Assembly (NCBI RefSeq): GCF_022170785.1
Contig: NZ_CP081870.1
Coordinates: 2,096,001-2,160,000, forward strand
DNA from: Rossellomorea marisflavi
GTDB taxonomy: Bacteria > Bacillota > Bacilli > Bacillales > Bacillaceae_B
Direction: 5' to 3'
Length of the DNA stretch: 64,000 bases
A program made the translations under genes and the position numbers. Each line of letters opens with the position of its first letter. Within the stretch, counting starts at the first letter, position 1. Positions 57,749 to 64,000 of the stretch are shown one piece after another. The notes beneath the pieces are model-generated. The model had not been told where the DNA came from. It saw only the letters and a list, made by a program, of their open reading frames with translations, and searched no databases.

Positions 57749-59530
57749 ATGGAGTATATGTTATTAGTCGCTATTGCATTCATACCATTCCTCATTTCGA
57801 TTTCATTGACCATCTACTCCAGAACGACCGTCTCCATCGCCCTAGCCTGCTTCCTGGTGCTGCTCGGTGCTTGGCAGCTTGAAATTGCAGCCCTCTATGC
57901 AGATGGGCTCCTACCAGAATCAGTGATTGATCGATTGTTCAGATTTTTCAGGATCGGTCCGATACTGATCATGCCGATCATCTATTATTTCATTTATTAT
58001 CTGGTAAGTGAGCATGAAGAGTTGAGACGCTACAGGAAATGGATCAATCGAACCAGCCTGAGTATCATGATCGGATACAGTATCCTGGTCTACATCATCA
58101 ACTTCACGGACTATGGTGTCACTTCCTATATGGTTGCCCCGGGGAGGGTATATTCCCCTACCCACTGGCTTCCGGTCTATGGATCACTGAACTGGACGTT
58201 CCTCCTTAATATTTTTCTTGTATTCGTTCACACATTCCTGCTACTCAGGGTCACCATCTTGATGAAGGATCCGGTCTATAAACTCTTTTATGTAAAACTG
58301 ATCATCGGGGCACTCTTTGTATTCTTGAATGGAGTAACAAGTGGATTTGGGTTATTCCCCTTATTCTTTTCAAGTTTCAATTCGATTTTGGTTGCCATCC
58401 TCTTATTCGTCGGATTCTTTCAGATGCAGACAGCTCGTGTAAAACAGGCAAACGCACGTTTGGCGAAACAGAGTGAACTCTTGGAAGCCATTATGAATCT
58501 GAACCCGAACTATTTGATCGTCATGAACCAATCGAATCAGATCATCAAGGTCAATCAATCTGCTGAAAAGCTTTGGGATGTGAGCAAGGATGAACTCATC
58601 GGAAAAGATTTCAGCGTAGTCGTAGAGCCTCCATACTCAATCAACCCATTGCGTAAAGACGTGCAGAGATTCGTGAATAAAATGGGAAGACCGTACTATA
58701 TCCAGTGGGGATTTCAAAAATTAGATCAAGCGGAGAAGGAATATCACACCTTGTTTTATGGAATCGACTTTTCGAAGCAAAAAGAGAATGAGCGGTTGTT
58801 GCTGGCCTCTGAAAAATCAAAAGTCATCGGGGAACTTGCAGCAAGCATCGCCCATGAAATCCGGAATCCATTGACTACCGTCAGGGGATTTATACAATTA
58901 TCAAAGGAAGTCCAGAAAGAAAAAGGATATGAAGATATCGTCCTTGAAGAAATCGATCGTATCAATGAGGTCTTGAAGGAATTATTGCTTCTAGCCAAAC
59001 CCGAAGCGCAGGTGGAACAAAACGGGGATAGTACCACCTCCATATCCGTTGTTCATGAGGTCAACACCATCAAGCTTCTGTTCGAGGCCATTGCATTGGA
59101 ACAAAATAAAAGCATCAGCATTTATCATACACTTGAACAGGGACACCTTGCCCGATTCGAGAAATCCCATTTCAAACAGGTGATCATCAATATATTGAAG
59201 AATAGTTTTGAAGCACTCCCGAAAATGGGGAAAATCAAGATCAAGATTGATGAGAAAAACAGAAAAACGAGGATTCGCATTTTGGATAACGGACGGGGTA
59301 TTGCGAGAGAACGCCTATCCCGAATCGGTGAGCCTTACTATACCAATAAAGAAAAGGGCACAGGGATCGGTTTGACGATCTGCTTTAAATTGATTGCGGA
59401 TTATGGTGGACAAATGAAGGTGAAAAGCAAGATCGGATGGGGGACGGTCGTCACCATCACCCTTGAACCGATTGAAAAGGAAAGACTCATATTTAATGAA
59501 GAATTAGACGGAAGGAGCACGGTGGTGTGA
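57749..59530 (+). CDS. sensor histidine kinase, sporulation-kinase type
   Basis: A 593-residue membrane kinase. About seven helices fill the first 230 residues. A PAS domain follows (about 240-345; LEAIMNLNPNYLIVMNQSNQIIKVN). HisKA contains SIAHEIRNPLTTVRGFIQL with the phosphoacceptor H369, as in KinA/KinB/KinE. The HATPase shows NILKNSFEA, DNGRGIARERLSRIGEPYYTNKEKGTGIGL. There is no adjacent response regulator, which fits a kinase feeding Spo0F in the phosphorelay (inference). GAGGAGG precedes the ATG. The methyltransferase gene overlaps its stop by 4 bp. Confidence 0.85.
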   Translation: MEYMLLVAIAFIPFLISISLTIYSRTTVSIALACFLVLLGAWQLEIAALYADGLLPESVIDRLFRFFRIGPILIMPIIYYFIYYLVSEHEELRRYRKWINRTSLSIMIGYSILVYIINFTDYGVTSYMVAPGRVYSPTHWLPVYGSLNWTFLLNIFLVFVHTFLLLRVTILMKDPVYKLFYVKLIIGALFVFLNGVTSGFGLFPLFFSSFNSILVAILLFVGFFQMQTARVKQANARLAKQSELLEAIMNLNPNYLIVMNQSNQIIKVNQSAEKLWDVSKDELIGKDFSVVVEPPYSINPLRKDVQRFVNKMGRPYYIQWGFQKLDQAEKEYHTLFYGIDFSKQKENERLLLASEKSKVIGELAASIAHEIRNPLTTVRGFIQLSKEVQKEKGYEDIVLEEIDRINEVLKELLLLAKPEAQVEQNGDSTTSISVVHEVNTIKLLFEAIALEQNKSISIYHTLEQGHLARFEKSHFKQVIINILKNSFEALPKMGKIKIKIDEKNRKTRIRILDNGRGIARERLSRIGEPYYTNKEKGTGIGLTICFKLIADYGGQMKVKSKIGWGTVVTITLEPIEKERLIFNEELDGRSTVV

Positions 59531-60177
59531 ACAGTTGGGAGAAGGCATATCGGGAAACGGACAACCTTTGGGGGAATAGCGTTGATTGTTCCCTAATCGA
59601 ATACAGTTCTCTCCTCAATGATGGAGACGCCGTTTTAGACCTCGGGATGGGAGAAGGAAGGAACGCGCACTATTTCGCTGCTAAAGGGCACCCCGTCACA
59701 GGTGTCGATTATTCTTCCTCTGCGATCAGCCGCTGCGAGGAGATCAGCGTTGAAGCGGGAGTGGCGATGGAAACGATCGTAGATGACATCACACAGTTTC
59801 CCGTACCCTCTTCATCGTATTCGCTGATTATCATAAGCAATGTACTGAATTTCTTCCATCCAGATGAGATCGACCAAATCATTCAAAAGGCGATCAGTGG
59901 CCTTGTTGTGGGGGGCATGATCTATATTCAAGCTTTCAATCGCAACGATCCTGCATATGCCAGAAATGTGAAGATGGCGGAAAAAGTAGATGAAGGTACC
60001 TTCTATAGAGAGAGGAATGATACGTACATTCATTTTTTCACCTTGGATTCACTCCTTGATTATTTCAAAGGTTTTGAAGTTCTTGTGGTGACTGAATCCT
60101 ACCGACTGGATCTTACACACGGAGAGCCCCATCATCATGGCATCATTGAGATGCTGGTCAGGAAGCAAGCAGGATGA
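59527..60177 (+). CDS. class I SAM-dependent methyltransferase
   Basis: A 216-residue Rossmann methyltransferase. Motif I is AVLDLGMGEGRNAHYFA (35-51), followed by the acidic VTGVDYSS of motif II and NVLNFFHPDEID. It resembles the TehB/UbiE-like group; substrate unknown. The GTG start lies inside the kinase stop (GTGA). The next gene overlaps its end by 4 bp. Confidence 0.82.
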   Translation: MNSWEKAYRETDNLWGNSVDCSLIEYSSLLNDGDAVLDLGMGEGRNAHYFAAKGHPVTGVDYSSSAISRCEEISVEAGVAMETIVDDITQFPVPSSSYSLIIISNVLNFFHPDEIDQIIQKAISGLVVGGMIYIQAFNRNDPAYARNVKMAEKVDEGTFYRERNDTYIHFFTLDSLLDYFKGFEVLVVTESYRLDLTHGEPHHHGIIEMLVRKQAG

Positions 60178-61079
60178 AAGAACAAATCCGCTCCGTGAAG
60201 GTCCGCGGTGCTGCTGTGGAAGTATGGGAAATGGGAGAAGGATCTCCGGTAATCATCTTGACTGGCATGAATTCGCCTATTTGGGAATGGCATGCTGTTG
60301 TACACGCTCTCTCTGTACAGCACCGGGTCATTCTATTTAATCGTCCTGGTCTTGGCAAAAGTGAATTAGGTGAGGGCATCCGAAGGACTGGAGCCCTGGC
60401 TGAAGAACTGGCTGAGCTGCTTCCTTTGCTTGCGGTCCATGAACCTGTAGTGCTCATCGGACATTCTTATGGAGGCTTATGTGCCCAGCATTTCGCCCGT
60501 TTGCACCCGTTCATGATCAAGGCGCTTCTTCTTGTTGATTCAACATCGGTCAACCTTCACCGACTGGACGACCTCATGCTCCCAGTGATGGACGCAGACA
60601 ATGATGCTGCATGGCTCGAAACCTGCCGCATCTATAGTGAGAAAACCTCCGAAGAACTTAAGGACCTTATTGCCCCCGGTTGTGTTCCTGGTCTGCCCAC
60701 TTTACTGAATGAAAAGCTCCAAGATTTCCAGTGGAATCCCCTCATGTATGCGGCCATGTACTCAGAGGTCACATGGTGGAAGGAAGATGCGATGATTATG
60801 AAAAATGGTCCTGGATTCCCGCAAATTCCGTTGACCGTCATTGCCCGTGATAAAGAATATGTCATCCGGCAGGAAGATGGACTCCCTGAGTGGGAGAAAA
60901 GAATATTTGAAACCCTTTGGGAAAAGCTGATGTATGAACAGTCAGAGCTGACTGACGACAGCCGGTTCATCATAGCGGAAGAATCAGGACACGCAGTTCA
61001 TCTTGATCGGCCCGATGTCGTCGTGGAAGCCTTTCATCATTTAGCGGAGAAGGTGCAGGGAAATGAAGGTGCTGGTTGA
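60174..61079 (+). CDS. alpha/beta hydrolase
   Basis: A 301-residue serine hydrolase. The oxyanion region is LTGMNSPIWEWH. The nucleophile elbow is GHSYGG (near residue 98). The acid probably lies in PLTVIARDKEYV and the catalytic His is in EESGHAVHLDRPDVV. No signal peptide is seen. Substrate unknown. It begins within the methyltransferase stop and overlaps the next small gene by 17 bp. Confidence 0.82.
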   Translation: MKEQIRSVKVRGAAVEVWEMGEGSPVIILTGMNSPIWEWHAVVHALSVQHRVILFNRPGLGKSELGEGIRRTGALAEELAELLPLLAVHEPVVLIGHSYGGLCAQHFARLHPFMIKALLLVDSTSVNLHRLDDLMLPVMDADNDAAWLETCRIYSEKTSEELKDLIAPGCVPGLPTLLNEKLQDFQWNPLMYAAMYSEVTWWKEDAMIMKNGPGFPQIPLTVIARDKEYVIRQEDGLPEWEKRIFETLWEKLMYEQSELTDDSRFIIAEESGHAVHLDRPDVVVEAFHHLAEKVQGNEGAG

Positions 61080-61281
61080 TCTCGTTTTGTCCATTGATGG
61101 GACACATATGAGAAAAGGCGGGGAATTTGAGGTGAGGAAGCGACCGGATGTCCCGTTACTGGTTTGCCGATGGATCAATCAGATCAAGATGGATACCGGA
61201 TACAGAGAAACGGAAATTGTCAGCGTATATCTGGACGGAGATGAAGATGTAACGGAACAAGTCAGGCTGACTTGCCGATAA
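61063..61281 (+). CDS. small hypothetical protein
   Basis: A 72-residue protein (GGEFEVRKRPDVPLLVCRWINQIKMDTGYRETEIVSVYLDGDEDVTEQV). GTGCAGGG precedes the ATG inside the end of the hydrolase gene. No domain is recognised. Its position in a tightly packed run supports it as a real gene. A GCGGTT/AACCGC hairpin follows at about 61285-61304. Confidence 0.6.
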   Translation: MKVLVDLVLSIDGTHMRKGGEFEVRKRPDVPLLVCRWINQIKMDTGYRETEIVSVYLDGDEDVTEQVRLTCR

Positions 61282-61360
61282 ATGAGCGGTTATGGAAGAT
61301 GAACCGCTTCAAGGGGCTGAGCTTTACATTGACAATACAGAACCATGGGAGGTCGATACA

Positions 61361-62059
61361 ATGATCAAAGCGGTTTGTTTTGACCTTGATAATACTCTCC
61401 TGGACAGGGATAAGTCGCTTCATAGCTTCCTGGAGGATCAATACGCACGGTTGAATATGTTTGATCATGTGGAAAAGGACCCCTTCATGGTTCGCTTCAT
61501 CGAGTTGGATGATCGGGGTTATGTATGGAAGGATATCGTTTATGAAACCCTGATTCGGGAATTCGACATGAGGGGGTGTACCATAGAAGAGCTTCTGTCT
61601 GATTATCTAACCCATTTTCACCATCACTGCATCCCCTTGGGCCCAGTGGAAGAGGTGTTGAAGGAATTGCGTGCACGCGGGATGCTGATCGGGATAATCT
61701 CAAATGGATTCCATCAGTTTCAATCTGACAACCTGAAGGCTTTATCCATCCATCTATATGCACATACAATCCTCATTTCAGAATCGGAAGGGATGCGCAA
61801 ACCCGATAAGAGAATCTTTCAATCGATTGCAGGCAAAATGGGCGTGCAGGTTGATGAATGCGCATTTGTCGGCGACCACCCCATCAATGATGTAAAGGGC
61901 GCCAAGGATGCAGGTATGACCTCGATATGGCTCCGGGGTGATGGGTACAGCGTACCGGATCATGCAGATGCCATCATCGATCAGCTTCCTGAGCTCATAG
62001 GTTTTTTGAGGAATCTGGACGTTGAAAGGTCGACCCTGACTAGGCATGATTCCTTTTAA
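61361..62059 (+). CDS. HAD-superfamily phosphatase
   Basis: A 232-residue hydrolase. Motif I is FDLDNTLLD (nucleophile D8, D10), motif II ISNG, motif III Lys in GMRKPDKRIF, and motif IV VGDHPINDVKGAKDAG. The cap domain lies between motifs I and II. The ATG at 61361 is 8 nt after GGGAGG; a longer frame from 61292 is less likely. It acts on a small phosphorylated metabolite that cannot be named. Confidence 0.85.
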   Translation: MIKAVCFDLDNTLLDRDKSLHSFLEDQYARLNMFDHVEKDPFMVRFIELDDRGYVWKDIVYETLIREFDMRGCTIEELLSDYLTHFHHHCIPLGPVEEVLKELRARGMLIGIISNGFHQFQSDNLKALSIHLYAHTILISESEGMRKPDKRIFQSIAGKMGVQVDECAFVGDHPINDVKGAKDAGMTSIWLRGDGYSVPDHADAIIDQLPELIGFLRNLDVERSTLTRHDSF

Positions 62060-62076
62060 TCTATATAAATGAAATC

Positions 62077-62105
62077 TTGCCTTGTGATTTATATTATGCT
62101 ATTAT
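62077..62105 (+). promoter_or_regulatory. sigma-A promoter of the hisS leader
   Basis: TTGCCT (62077-62082), exactly 17 bp, then TATTAT (62100-62105). Transcription would start near 62112, 17 nt before the leader ATG. Confidence 0.65.
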
Positions 62106-62128
62106 TGTGAAAATTCGAGGTGTTTCTT

Positions 62129-62173
62129 ATGACTTTATTCACTCAGACACAATTCCATCATCATATCAAGTAG
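62129..62173 (+). CDS. 14-residue His-rich leader peptide of hisS
   Basis: The frame MTLFTQTQFHHHIK ends at TAG (62171-62173). AGGTG stands 6 nt upstream of the ATG. Three consecutive His codons (62156-62164) lie near its end, and its stop codon begins the 5' arm of a hairpin. A terminator follows before hisS. This is the layout of a classical ribosome-mediated attenuator, in which shortage of charged tRNA-His stalls translation at the His codons. Expression of the peptide is not shown, only inferred. Confidence 0.75.
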   Translation: MTLFTQTQFHHHIK

Positions 62174-62266
62174 CCTTGCCGGTTGTTTTTTTAAAAAACC
62201 AGGAAGGCTATTACCCATTGAACCGCATCTGACTTAAGTTTCTGCTTAGATCAGCTGCGGTTTTTT
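62171..62266 (+). promoter_or_regulatory. attenuator structures of hisS
   Basis: Hairpin A: TAGCCTT (62171-62177) pairs with AAGGCTA (62204-62210), with further pairing inside. Terminator: AACCGCA (62221-62227) pairs with TGCGGTT, extended by CTGA/TCAG, followed by six T (to 62266). Alternative: TGCCGGTT (62177-62184) can pair with AACCGCA with one bulged C, which excludes both other structures and would act as antiterminator. No T-box GGTGGTACCGCG element is present. Confidence 0.7.
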
Positions 62267-62312
62267 GTGTTCTGGATAAGAGGTACTAAAATGAAAGAAG
62301 GAGGAAGACAAA

Positions 62313-63587
62313 ATGAGAAAGATGGATTATCAGAATGTAAAGGGAACAGCTGATTATTTGCCTGAAGCTGAAGGGATTCGAAGAAAGGTGAGGAATACAC
62401 TGGAAGACGTGTTCATACAATACGGCTGCAAGCCGCTGGAAACGCCCATTCTAAATTATACGGATCTGTTGGCATCCAAATATGGAGGTGGGGCGGAAAT
62501 CTTGAAGGAGATGTACGTGCTGAGCGACCGGGGGGAACGTGATCTTGCCCTGCGTTATGATTTAACGATCCCTTATGCCAAAGTAGTGGCCATGAACCCG
62601 ACGTTGAAACTACCGTTTAAACGCTATGAAATCGGTAAAGTGTTCAGGGACGGTCCAATCAAAAAAGGAAGGATGAGGGAGTTCACTCAGTGTGATGTAG
62701 ACGTCACGGGCATCGATTCATGTGCAGCAGAAGCAGAGCTTATCATGATGGCACTGGATGCGTTCGACCGGCTGGAAATGGAAGTGGTGATCCAATACAA
62801 TAACCGAAAGCTGCTTGCAGGCATGCTGGAATCCTTCGGCATCCCACCTGAGAAAAGTGGGGAAGTGATCCTCGTCCTGGATAAATTGGAGAAGATCGGC
62901 CTGGAAGCATGTAAAGAGGAACTGAAGAAAAAAGGACTTAGTGCAGGAGCATTAGATGAAACAAAGCAGTTCATATTGGCTTCCCCCACTTGTTTGGAGT
63001 ACTTTTCACCCTATATAGAGAAAAACACATTGATTTCTGAGGGGCTGGCGGAACTGAGAGAGCTGGAGAAACTCCTTGAAGGTTTGGGAATAAATGCTCA
63101 GTGCCAATTCAATCCATACCTTGCCAGAGGATTGGACATTTATACGGGTACCATCTATGAACTCTTCATGAAGGACGGCAGCCTGCGGTCGAGCATCGGA
63201 AGCGGCGGTCGCTATCACAATGCCATTGCAGGGTTGAAAGGGGAGGATGGGGGATCCTATTCCACTGTCGGAATCTCCTTTGGCTTGGATGTCATTTTGA
63301 CAGCCCTTTTGGAAAAGGAAGAAACCAGTCCCGATCCTTGGGTGGATTACTTGATCATTCCGGTCCAAGAAATGGAGCACTGCTTTCGGATGGCACGGGT
63401 TCTCAGACAAGAAGGGAACAGGGTCGAAGTGGACATGTCTGGAAGGTCCGTAAGAAAAAGCATGGACTATGCCCGTAAGGCAGGGATCCCGTTTGTAGCG
63501 GTGATAGGAGAAAGGGAAGTTTCAAACCGGAGTTGCATGGTCAAGGATATGATGACAGGAAATGAGTCAGAATGGGTACTCAGATGA
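62313..63587 (+). CDS. hisS: histidyl-tRNA synthetase (probable second HisS)
   Basis: A 424-residue class II synthetase. Motif 2 lies in KRYEIGKVFRDGPIKKGRMREFTQCDVDV. The HisRS-specific signature is YLARGLDIYTGTIYELF. The motif 3 region is SSIGSGGRYHNAIAGL with TVGISFGLDVI. The C-terminal anticodon domain begins near WVDYLIIPVQEMEHCFRMARVL. AAGGAGG precedes the ATG. It is not followed by aspS, which follows the main hisS in B. subtilis, so it is likely an additional copy. It is preceded by a His leader-peptide attenuator. Confidence 0.9.
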   Translation: MRKMDYQNVKGTADYLPEAEGIRRKVRNTLEDVFIQYGCKPLETPILNYTDLLASKYGGGAEILKEMYVLSDRGERDLALRYDLTIPYAKVVAMNPTLKLPFKRYEIGKVFRDGPIKKGRMREFTQCDVDVTGIDSCAAEAELIMMALDAFDRLEMEVVIQYNNRKLLAGMLESFGIPPEKSGEVILVLDKLEKIGLEACKEELKKKGLSAGALDETKQFILASPTCLEYFSPYIEKNTLISEGLAELRELEKLLEGLGINAQCQFNPYLARGLDIYTGTIYELFMKDGSLRSSIGSGGRYHNAIAGLKGEDGGSYSTVGISFGLDVILTALLEKEETSPDPWVDYLIIPVQEMEHCFRMARVLRQEGNRVEVDMSGRSVRKSMDYARKAGIPFVAVIGEREVSNRSCMVKDMMTGNESEWVLR

Positions 63588-63696
63588 ACTTCGGTACAAA
63601 GGGGAATGCCGCAAAAAGATGATTTTATTTAAATTTTGCCAAAACTAGTTTATCATATGATAGAGAATGTCCATTGCTTGAAAAGGAAGGTACCCT

Positions 63697-64000
63697 ATGT
63701 CAATTGAATCAGGACAGAACATTACCAGGATACATATTGAAGACAAAGAATTTATTCTCATCGGCACCGCCCATGTTTCCAGGCAAAGCGCCGAGCAGGT
63801 CAAGGAGGTTATTGAGCGGGAAAGGCCGGATACAGTGTGTATTGAGCTTGATGAACCGCGTTATCAATCCATTGTCGAAGGAGACAAATGGAAGCAGACG
63901 GATATCTTCCAAGTAATAAAGGAGAGAAAAGCAACCCTGCTCCTTATGAACCTTGCCATCGGATCATTCCAGAAACGGATGGCTAAGCAGTTCGGGATCA
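63697..64000 (+). CDS. TraB/PrgY-family protein, 5' part
   Basis: The first 101 codons; the gene continues beyond the window. TRIHIEDKEFILIGTAHVSRQSAEQVKEVIERERPDTVCIELDEPRYQSI shows the GTAHVS and IELDxxRY motifs of the TraB family (TIKI-like putative metalloproteases; PrgY blocks pheromone in enterococci). AAGGAAGG precedes the ATG at 63697. The membrane C-terminus usual for the family is outside the window. Confidence 0.85.
   Translation, partial: MSIESGQNITRIHIEDKEFILIGTAHVSRQSAEQVKEVIERERPDTVCIELDEPRYQSIVEGDKWKQTDIFQVIKERKATLLLMNLAIGSFQKRMAKQFGI

Follow-up and report, generated by a model that had tools for sequence, protein, structure and literature searches.

A histidine leader-peptide element before a second histidyl-tRNA synthetase gene in Rossellomorea marisflavi is probably a transcription attenuator and has a glutamine-codon relative

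A short reading frame with a run of histidine codons, a hairpin that begins on its stop codon and an intrinsic terminator lie before a histidyl-tRNA synthetase (HisRS) gene in Rossellomorea marisflavi, within the 64,000-nucleotide stretch of its genome that we analysed (the window). Comparison with relatives makes it highly probable that this element is a ribosome-mediated transcription attenuator. The element occurs in many relatives within the Bacillales, attached to a spare HisRS gene that we call hisS2; the housekeeping HisRS keeps a T-box, and a version with glutamine codons exists. The original prediction, made from the window alone, had named a histidine leader-peptide attenuator in front of a HisRS gene. 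Conservation with covariation supports this claim, and the mechanism class that it chose, leader-peptide attenuation, is very likely right. Judged from sequence, the leader, the match between codon identity and gene, hairpin 1 and the terminator are established.

The gene behind the element (Table 1) encodes a protein that matches PRK12420/NF009085 over residues 3-420 with 593 bits, above the curated cut-off of 540, and that contains both HisRS and anticodon-binding domains. The 4.31 Mb genome of R. marisflavi holds three genes of the HisRS family, namely hisS2, a housekeeping hisS that is 29% identical to it and has a T-box (RF00230, 120 bits) upstream, and a hisZ-like gene that is 26% identical to it and before which no His leader could be seen by eye. 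The coordinates first given for hisS are correct, but the gene is the second HisRS and not the one under T-box control. Covariance-model searches of 58000-64000 with E up to 1 matched neither the T-box RF00230 before hisS2 nor the Rfam His leader RF00514 at this locus, and the sole match in the Rfam scan of the same region was a lncRNA far under its gathering score.

Table 1. The hisS2 gene of the window and the parts of its leader region (positions counted from the first letter of the window).
Feature	Positions	Strand	Basis
Promoter-like site, TTGCCT-17-TATTAT, with TG before the second hexamer (-10 box)	62077..62105	+	Consensus scan
Ribosome-binding site of the leader, GAGGTG, 6 bases before the ATG	62117..62122	+	Sequence reading
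Leader frame MTLFTQTQFHHHIK, 14 codons, ATG at 62129, stop codon TAG at 62171-62173	62129..62173	+	Sequence; shuffle statistics
Sensor run, three CAT histidine codons	62156..62164	+	Sequence; codon counts
Hairpin 1, base TAGCCTT/AAGGCTA, beginning on the leader stop codon	62171..62210	+	Fold, covariation
5' strand of the proposed antiterminator, partner 62221-62227	62177..62184	+	Complete in the window and two sister genomes only
Intrinsic terminator, stem 62220-62263, T-run 62261-62266	62220..62266	+	Folds, covariation
hisS2, second histidyl-tRNA synthetase, NF009085/PRK12420, 424 aa	62313..63587	+	Protein search, profile match, domains

The leader frame, its ribosome site, the three CAT codons, the hairpin at the stop codon and the terminator are all present as first described, by reading of the sequence and by folding. 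The promoter that had also been claimed is there as a promoter-like site, which is weak on its own because a scan of both strands of 61800-62600 found four such sites against 1.8 expected. Sites like GAGGTG precede many of the leaders of relatives. The leader RNA from 62106 to 62280 folds with a z of -5.0, as good as none of 200 shuffles, and the terminator hairpin reaches about -21 kcal/mol by folding; a consensus scanner for terminators listed none in 61800-62600. The 3' half of hairpin 1 (62193-62203 in the window) resembles the terminator 5' arm (62221-62227), the two reading AAATCGCA and AAACCGCA in many relatives. We also considered a second leader frame starting from AGGAAGG on the 3' side of hairpin 1 and rejected it, as relatives inspected by eye showed neither a conserved start codon nor a conserved frame.

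Conservation of the leader was measured on 64 regions upstream of hisS2, from loci found by their protein, with ATG starts only and 350 nt per region; two of these loci, L014 and L185, are probably one species. This test is cleaner than the wider leader set, where the frame picker favours HH or QQ and the counts are partly circular. A short ATG frame with HH no more than four codons from its stop was present in 57 of the 64 regions; dinucleotide shuffles gave such a frame in 44 of 3200 cases, and the reverse-strand control in 0 of 64. Leaders with HHH were found in 52 of 64 against 1 of 3200 shuffles. The seven regions that fail the criterion comprise L014 and L185 with HQH, L207, L209 and L211 with HYYH or FYYH, L208 with a GTG start, and L032, where the element lies further upstream. 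In L207, L209 and L211 tyrosine codons thus sit within the leader run (LHYYHKQR, FYYHKQR), CAT and TAT being one base apart. Since the sensor run mixes 271 CAT with 63 CAC codons, as counted in the wider and partly circular set, it is the amino acid and not one triplet that is conserved.

Within the genus hisS2 occurs in 23 of 36 genomes, and a model built from 34 leaders matched with E < 1e-20 in the same 23; three further genomes gave weak matches only (E 1.7e-5 or worse), and such weak genus-level matches, many of them in genomes G019 and G034, are left out of the counts. One protein scan covered 20 relatives, in which the 12 closest (L004-L015, with HQH in L014) and Paenibacillus ginsengarvi (L017) have a leader with His codons and L016 has none by eye, a tally that leaves out L018-L023. 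Across the order, leader matches with E up to 0.01 fell in 69 of 397 genomes, and 63 places in 62 genomes lay below 1e-8; order-level matches with E above 1e-4 are not counted. By tblastn, 59 of these 63 strong matches precede hisS2. The other four are L119 and L123, which are the glutamine version described below, L116, which is followed by an apparently broken hisS2 (by eye), and L090, which has an intact leader. At L090 the leader, hairpin and terminator are intact at 1501-1622, and the downstream stretch contains no hisS2 and, by eye, a HAD-like gene; this element is perhaps an orphaned attenuator. Seven weak order-level matches were inspected by eye, and L127-L129 have a leader with a His run and L126 and L130-L132 do not. 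In the class, hisS2 was found in 33 of 398 genomes, the window's included. The class-level leader check took in 29 further loci and L017, leaving out the hisS2 genomes G710, G686 and G460, and gave 27 HH or HQH leaders, the other three being HYYH or FYYH. Genome G410 has two strong leader matches (L082, L094); behind each lies a hisS2 whose alignment falls into two overlapping pieces.

In 79 of 85 leaders the first base of hairpin 1 is also the first base of the stop codon. The remaining six (L085, L101 and four glutamine versions) are 1 to 5 bases off. The 85 rows, 82 of them unique, were reached from 90 by taking out L116 and L166, and also L127-L129, which have no hairpin at the stop codon. 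Sixty-two of the 82 were aligned. Most of the other 20 are near-identical, though L085 and L101 are also among them, with hairpins that start 1 and 5 bases beyond the first base of the stop. In the alignment 96.3% of the cells of hairpin 1 and the terminator are paired and both sides have changed at 14 of 20 pairs, figures to be read with the caveat that the sequences are related and that the structure was taken from the consensus of the same sequences, which favours the fit. None of 500 shuffles reached any of five measures, and structures slid along the alignment were 38-57% paired. The third base of the stop codon lies within the helix and covaries with its partner, giving G-C in 51, A-U in 8 and G-U in 3 of the 62 sequences, TAG going with C and TAA with U. 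By eye, many of the stems have a G-G mismatch, those of the glutamine version included, though not all do. The original prediction had proposed conservation of the His run and of the helices in relatives as its check, and the codons, hairpin 1 and the terminator are indeed kept; the antiterminator that it proposed failed.

A model made from His leaders alone also found leaders with glutamine codons, at L119 (E 1.6e-14) and L123 (E 5e-10). These end in LQLQQQN and TIQQQQ respectively and run into the shared type of hairpin and terminator. Downstream lie a gene related to 23S rRNA methyltransferases and then glutaminyl-tRNA synthetase, glnS, above cut-off in both genomes (G237 for L119, G260 for L123). 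Upstream of glnS in the same family, L163, L165 and L167 carry the Gln runs QQQQI, QQQK and QFQLQR, with the stop codon at most two bases from the hairpin. At L166 the Gln-rich frame VQFQRQ has lost the stop codon at the hairpin and continues into it, and the RNA still matches (E 9e-4 with model R1, 8e-5 with model R2). L164 is doubtful, having QQQ and a similar-looking hairpin by eye, an R2 match at E 0.81 and no R1 match. The tally is therefore five clear cases (L119, L123, L163, L165 and L167), one with a lost stop codon and one doubtful. They come from six genomes of one genus (g57, the doubtful L164 included) and one of another (g105), out of 15 family members with glnS above cut-off. In the other eight glnS-bearing members (loci L149, L151, L153, L168-L172 and L182) model R2 found no match, and R1 gave a single weak one, L172, at E 0.13. 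Short frames with a Gln-rich tail were present in 5 of the 7 Gln-version regions against 5 of 1400 shuffles. Among 30 fetched glnS loci, the 1500 nt upstream held three such frames, none followed by hairpin 1 by eye, and no T-box at gathering score was found near glnS in 20 sources (12 glnS loci and 8 from the Gln-version family).

His and Gln were the only codon versions among the 63 strong order-level matches. A search of 348 genomes of the class for other versions with model R2 found none, its three matches being the window's own element and two known hisS2 leaders; this model lacks reach to distant types, and its sample overlaps the earlier ones. A histidine codon (CAY) becomes a glutamine codon (CAR) by one base. 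At the level of sequence, this natural codon swap supports codon-specific sensing. We think it likely that codon swapping is how this RNA, as a reusable chassis, changes its amino-acid specificity in evolution. The His form before hisS2 is the commoner and presumably ancestral; one lineage would have turned CAY into CAR by third-position changes, so that the stop-codon hairpin and an AACCGCA/TGCGGTT terminator now stand before the methyltransferase-glnS operon. A nascent-chain component may come in addition from the Gln conserved two residues ahead of the run. If true, the codon-swapped relatives are nature's version of the codon-replacement experiment that defines leader-peptide attenuation. 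We found no published report of the Gln version in a search mostly outside subscription journals. In the accessible portion of a Shewanella screen, a glnS candidate is listed as a 'tRNA synthetase leader'.

How the ribosome would control the terminator is a separate question. The original prediction held that a ribosome at the His codons covers TAGCCTT and that 62177-62184 then pairs with 62221-62227 as an antiterminator, which we regard as unlikely. The pairing is possible on paper in the window and in two sister genomes, and the terminator 5' arm is predicted to be 0.34 paired upstream when the RNA is blocked through the base after the stop, against 0.15 unblocked. As an antiterminator, however, it is not conserved, the four GGTT:AACC pairs all forming in 3 of the 62 aligned relatives, which are the window and these two sister genomes, with a second register in three others. 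Over the 82 unique leaders, the 5' half of hairpin 1 paired no better with the terminator 5' arm than in shuffles (mean z 0.05), and a sequence's own partner was better than partners swapped between groups in 14 of 35. When the leader, either half of hairpin 1 and the linker were paired with the terminator 5' arm, mean z ranged from 0.03 to 0.30, again at shuffle level; as positive controls in the same test, hairpin 1 gave a mean z of -5.1 and the terminator -7.3. The sole pairing above chance joined the 3' half of hairpin 1 to the terminator 3' arm, at a mean z of -1.22 much weaker than the terminator. It was rejected as a coevolving pair, since its own partner beat swapped ones in only 20 of 35 groups, in two of which (g21b, oce) the terminator 3' arm was drawn too long. 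Folds of truncated transcripts from 34 main-type sequences showed no consistent switch between the stalled and released states. The shuffle, swapped-partner and alignment tests thus found no conserved antiterminator in the main Bacillus type.

The geometry of the ribosome also speaks against that proposal. The leading edge of a ribosome lies about 12-13 bases beyond the start of the A site. For a ribosome whose A site is at the first His codon (62156) the edge would therefore fall near 62168, short of TAGCCTT; one standing on the stop codon would, by the same footprint distance, cover it. In predictions with a ribosome in place, the terminator 5' arm was paired upstream at 0.01 for the first His codon, 0.17 for the last His codon and 0.27 for the stop codon, and at 0.51 with no ribosome. 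Both the antiterminator and the ribosome geometry of the original prediction are probably wrong.

More distant relatives, with hisS2 at about 43-55% identity (the class search, L017 and L127) together with the leaders L128 and L129, have leaders that end much alike and are followed by RNA that differs from the main type. This RNA is predicted to form overlapping hairpins in the classical manner, most clearly in L127, L194, L196 and L204. The first hairpin, A:B, begins on the leader stop codon or close to it; the others are B:C, the antiterminator, C:E, and the terminator, E:F. In minimum-energy folds of 30 sequences, freeing A instead of masking it left the terminator arm E more sequestered in 18, equally so in 10 and less so in 2. 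An ensemble calculation comparing a ribosome at the first His codon with one at the stop was more mixed, with a more sequestered arm in 4 of 11 (L196, L127, L017 and L128), about equal values in 4 and less in 3 (L190, L204 and L205, the arm having been drawn too far upstream in the latter two). These models suggest that a ribosome on the stop codon, and not one at the first His codon, masks hairpin 1. As the stop-codon ribosome would mask A and the first-His-codon ribosome would not, plentiful His-tRNA would favour the terminator, and a shortage, with the ribosome halted at the run and hairpin 1 formed, would favour readthrough. Which ribosome covers TAGCCTT would then be the opposite of what was originally assumed, if we infer from these relatives to the main type. 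L128 (reverse strand) and L129 have a His leader, ..AQLHHHT, just before position 340 of the oriented stretch, with classical alternative hairpins. The protein encoded by the following gene has about 150-160 aa; the 136 residues searched had no Pfam or NCBIfam match, and no hisS2 was found in the surrounding stretch.

For the attenuator before hisS2 we propose that the leader peptide is translated as RNA polymerase proceeds through hairpin 1 and the terminator, so that the position of the ribosome at decision time would report charged tRNA-His. With charged tRNA-His in short supply the ribosome would halt at the His run; otherwise it would reach the stop codon, the first base of hairpin 1. Because the stop codon is the start of hairpin 1, the hairpin would form or not according to where the ribosome stands, being blocked by a ribosome on the stop codon and presumably not by one at the first His codon. 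With plentiful His-tRNA, transcription would end at the terminator; with His-tRNA in short supply, it would continue past it.

A different view of the leader is that it is not a pure codon counter, and that the ribosome is slowed by a nascent chain ending Gln-x-His-His-His, an effect in which free histidine may play a part. Codon counting does not explain the Gln found two residues before the His run in 50 of the 57 leaders from protein-found loci, nor its presence in 97 of the 111 leaders of the wider, partly circular set, which includes distant relatives with quite different downstream RNA. These counts are, however, made on related sequences. The codon is CAA in 93 of the 97, which RNA or codon-context reasons may keep, and the Gln-swapped leaders indicate that the His run itself can be replaced. 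We consider an arrest-peptide part improbable. That the element is a plain upstream terminator with a fortuitous small frame and no regulation, a reading to which the lack of a detectable antiterminator in the main type by the shuffle tests lends something, is barely credible given conservation and covariation over many genera and a codon identity that tracks the downstream synthetase.

Firmicutes use T-boxes for many synthetase genes, and a T-box senses uncharged tRNA directly. RF00230, the usual control of Bacillus synthetase genes, stands here before the housekeeping hisS and not before hisS2. A parallel is found in Streptomyces, where, as Vecchione and Sello reportedly described in 2010, ribosome-mediated attenuation at codons for the enzyme's own amino acid controls an auxiliary TrpRS gene. 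The hisS2 element resembles it in that it would serve a second, auxiliary synthetase through codons for that enzyme's amino acid, and differs in amino acid, phylum and RNA. A second synthetase that is induced by a shortage of charged tRNA could matter for tolerance to HisRS inhibitors. The element and its relatives also allow codon identity, ribosome position and hairpin design to be compared over natural variants of a single RNA family.

For bacilli, Naville and Gautheret (2010, PMC2965389) report, in the parts of the paper available to us, short ORFs with a stretch of His codons in the 5' UTRs of hisS* and hisZ, from which they inferred a His leader peptide, and state that no leader-peptide system of such kind was known in Firmicutes before. 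Their group shares with ours a Bacillus hisS paralog, a short ORF with His codons, a 5' terminator and a T-box on the housekeeping hisS, and very probably includes the window element, as far as a comparison with the group's description, rather than with aligned sequences, can tell. Because PMC2965389, in those parts, already predicted a His leader there, the hisS2 leader belongs to a published prediction and the core claim is not new. They also describe a His leader before hisZ; we saw none before hisZ here, in the genome by eye or among the 63 strong matches from 397 genomes. An antiterminator, a Gln version and stop-codon covariation do not appear in the portions of their account that we could draw on. 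No experimental test of the predicted Bacillus His leader was found in the available text of PMC2965389 or PMC9413887. The new results here are the Gln relative with its swapped codons, the covariation at the stop codon and, for the main type, a search for an antiterminator that found none.

His-leader attenuators have further been predicted for his operons of the B. cereus group, Peptostreptococcaceae (and Lutispora) and Erysipelotrichales, according to the main text of Rodionov et al. (2022, PMC9413887). The remark in the original prediction that such control is unusual for a Bacillus synthetase gene is thus not supported: by the available text of the two papers, a His leader before a Bacillus hisS paralog was predicted in 2010 (PMC2965389), and leaders for the his operons of three lineages of Firmicutes followed in 2022 (PMC9413887). 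The attenuators in the main text of PMC9413887 control biosynthesis operons, unlike hisS2, and the terms 'hisS' and 'histidyl-tRNA synthetase' are absent from it. Like the hisS2 element they are found in Firmicutes and have a leader with a run of His codons, 3-5 in their case; alternative hairpins come after it, as is predicted for the distant relatives with hisS2. The proteobacterial His leader RF00514 works alike, with a run of His codons and a terminator (PMC9413887).
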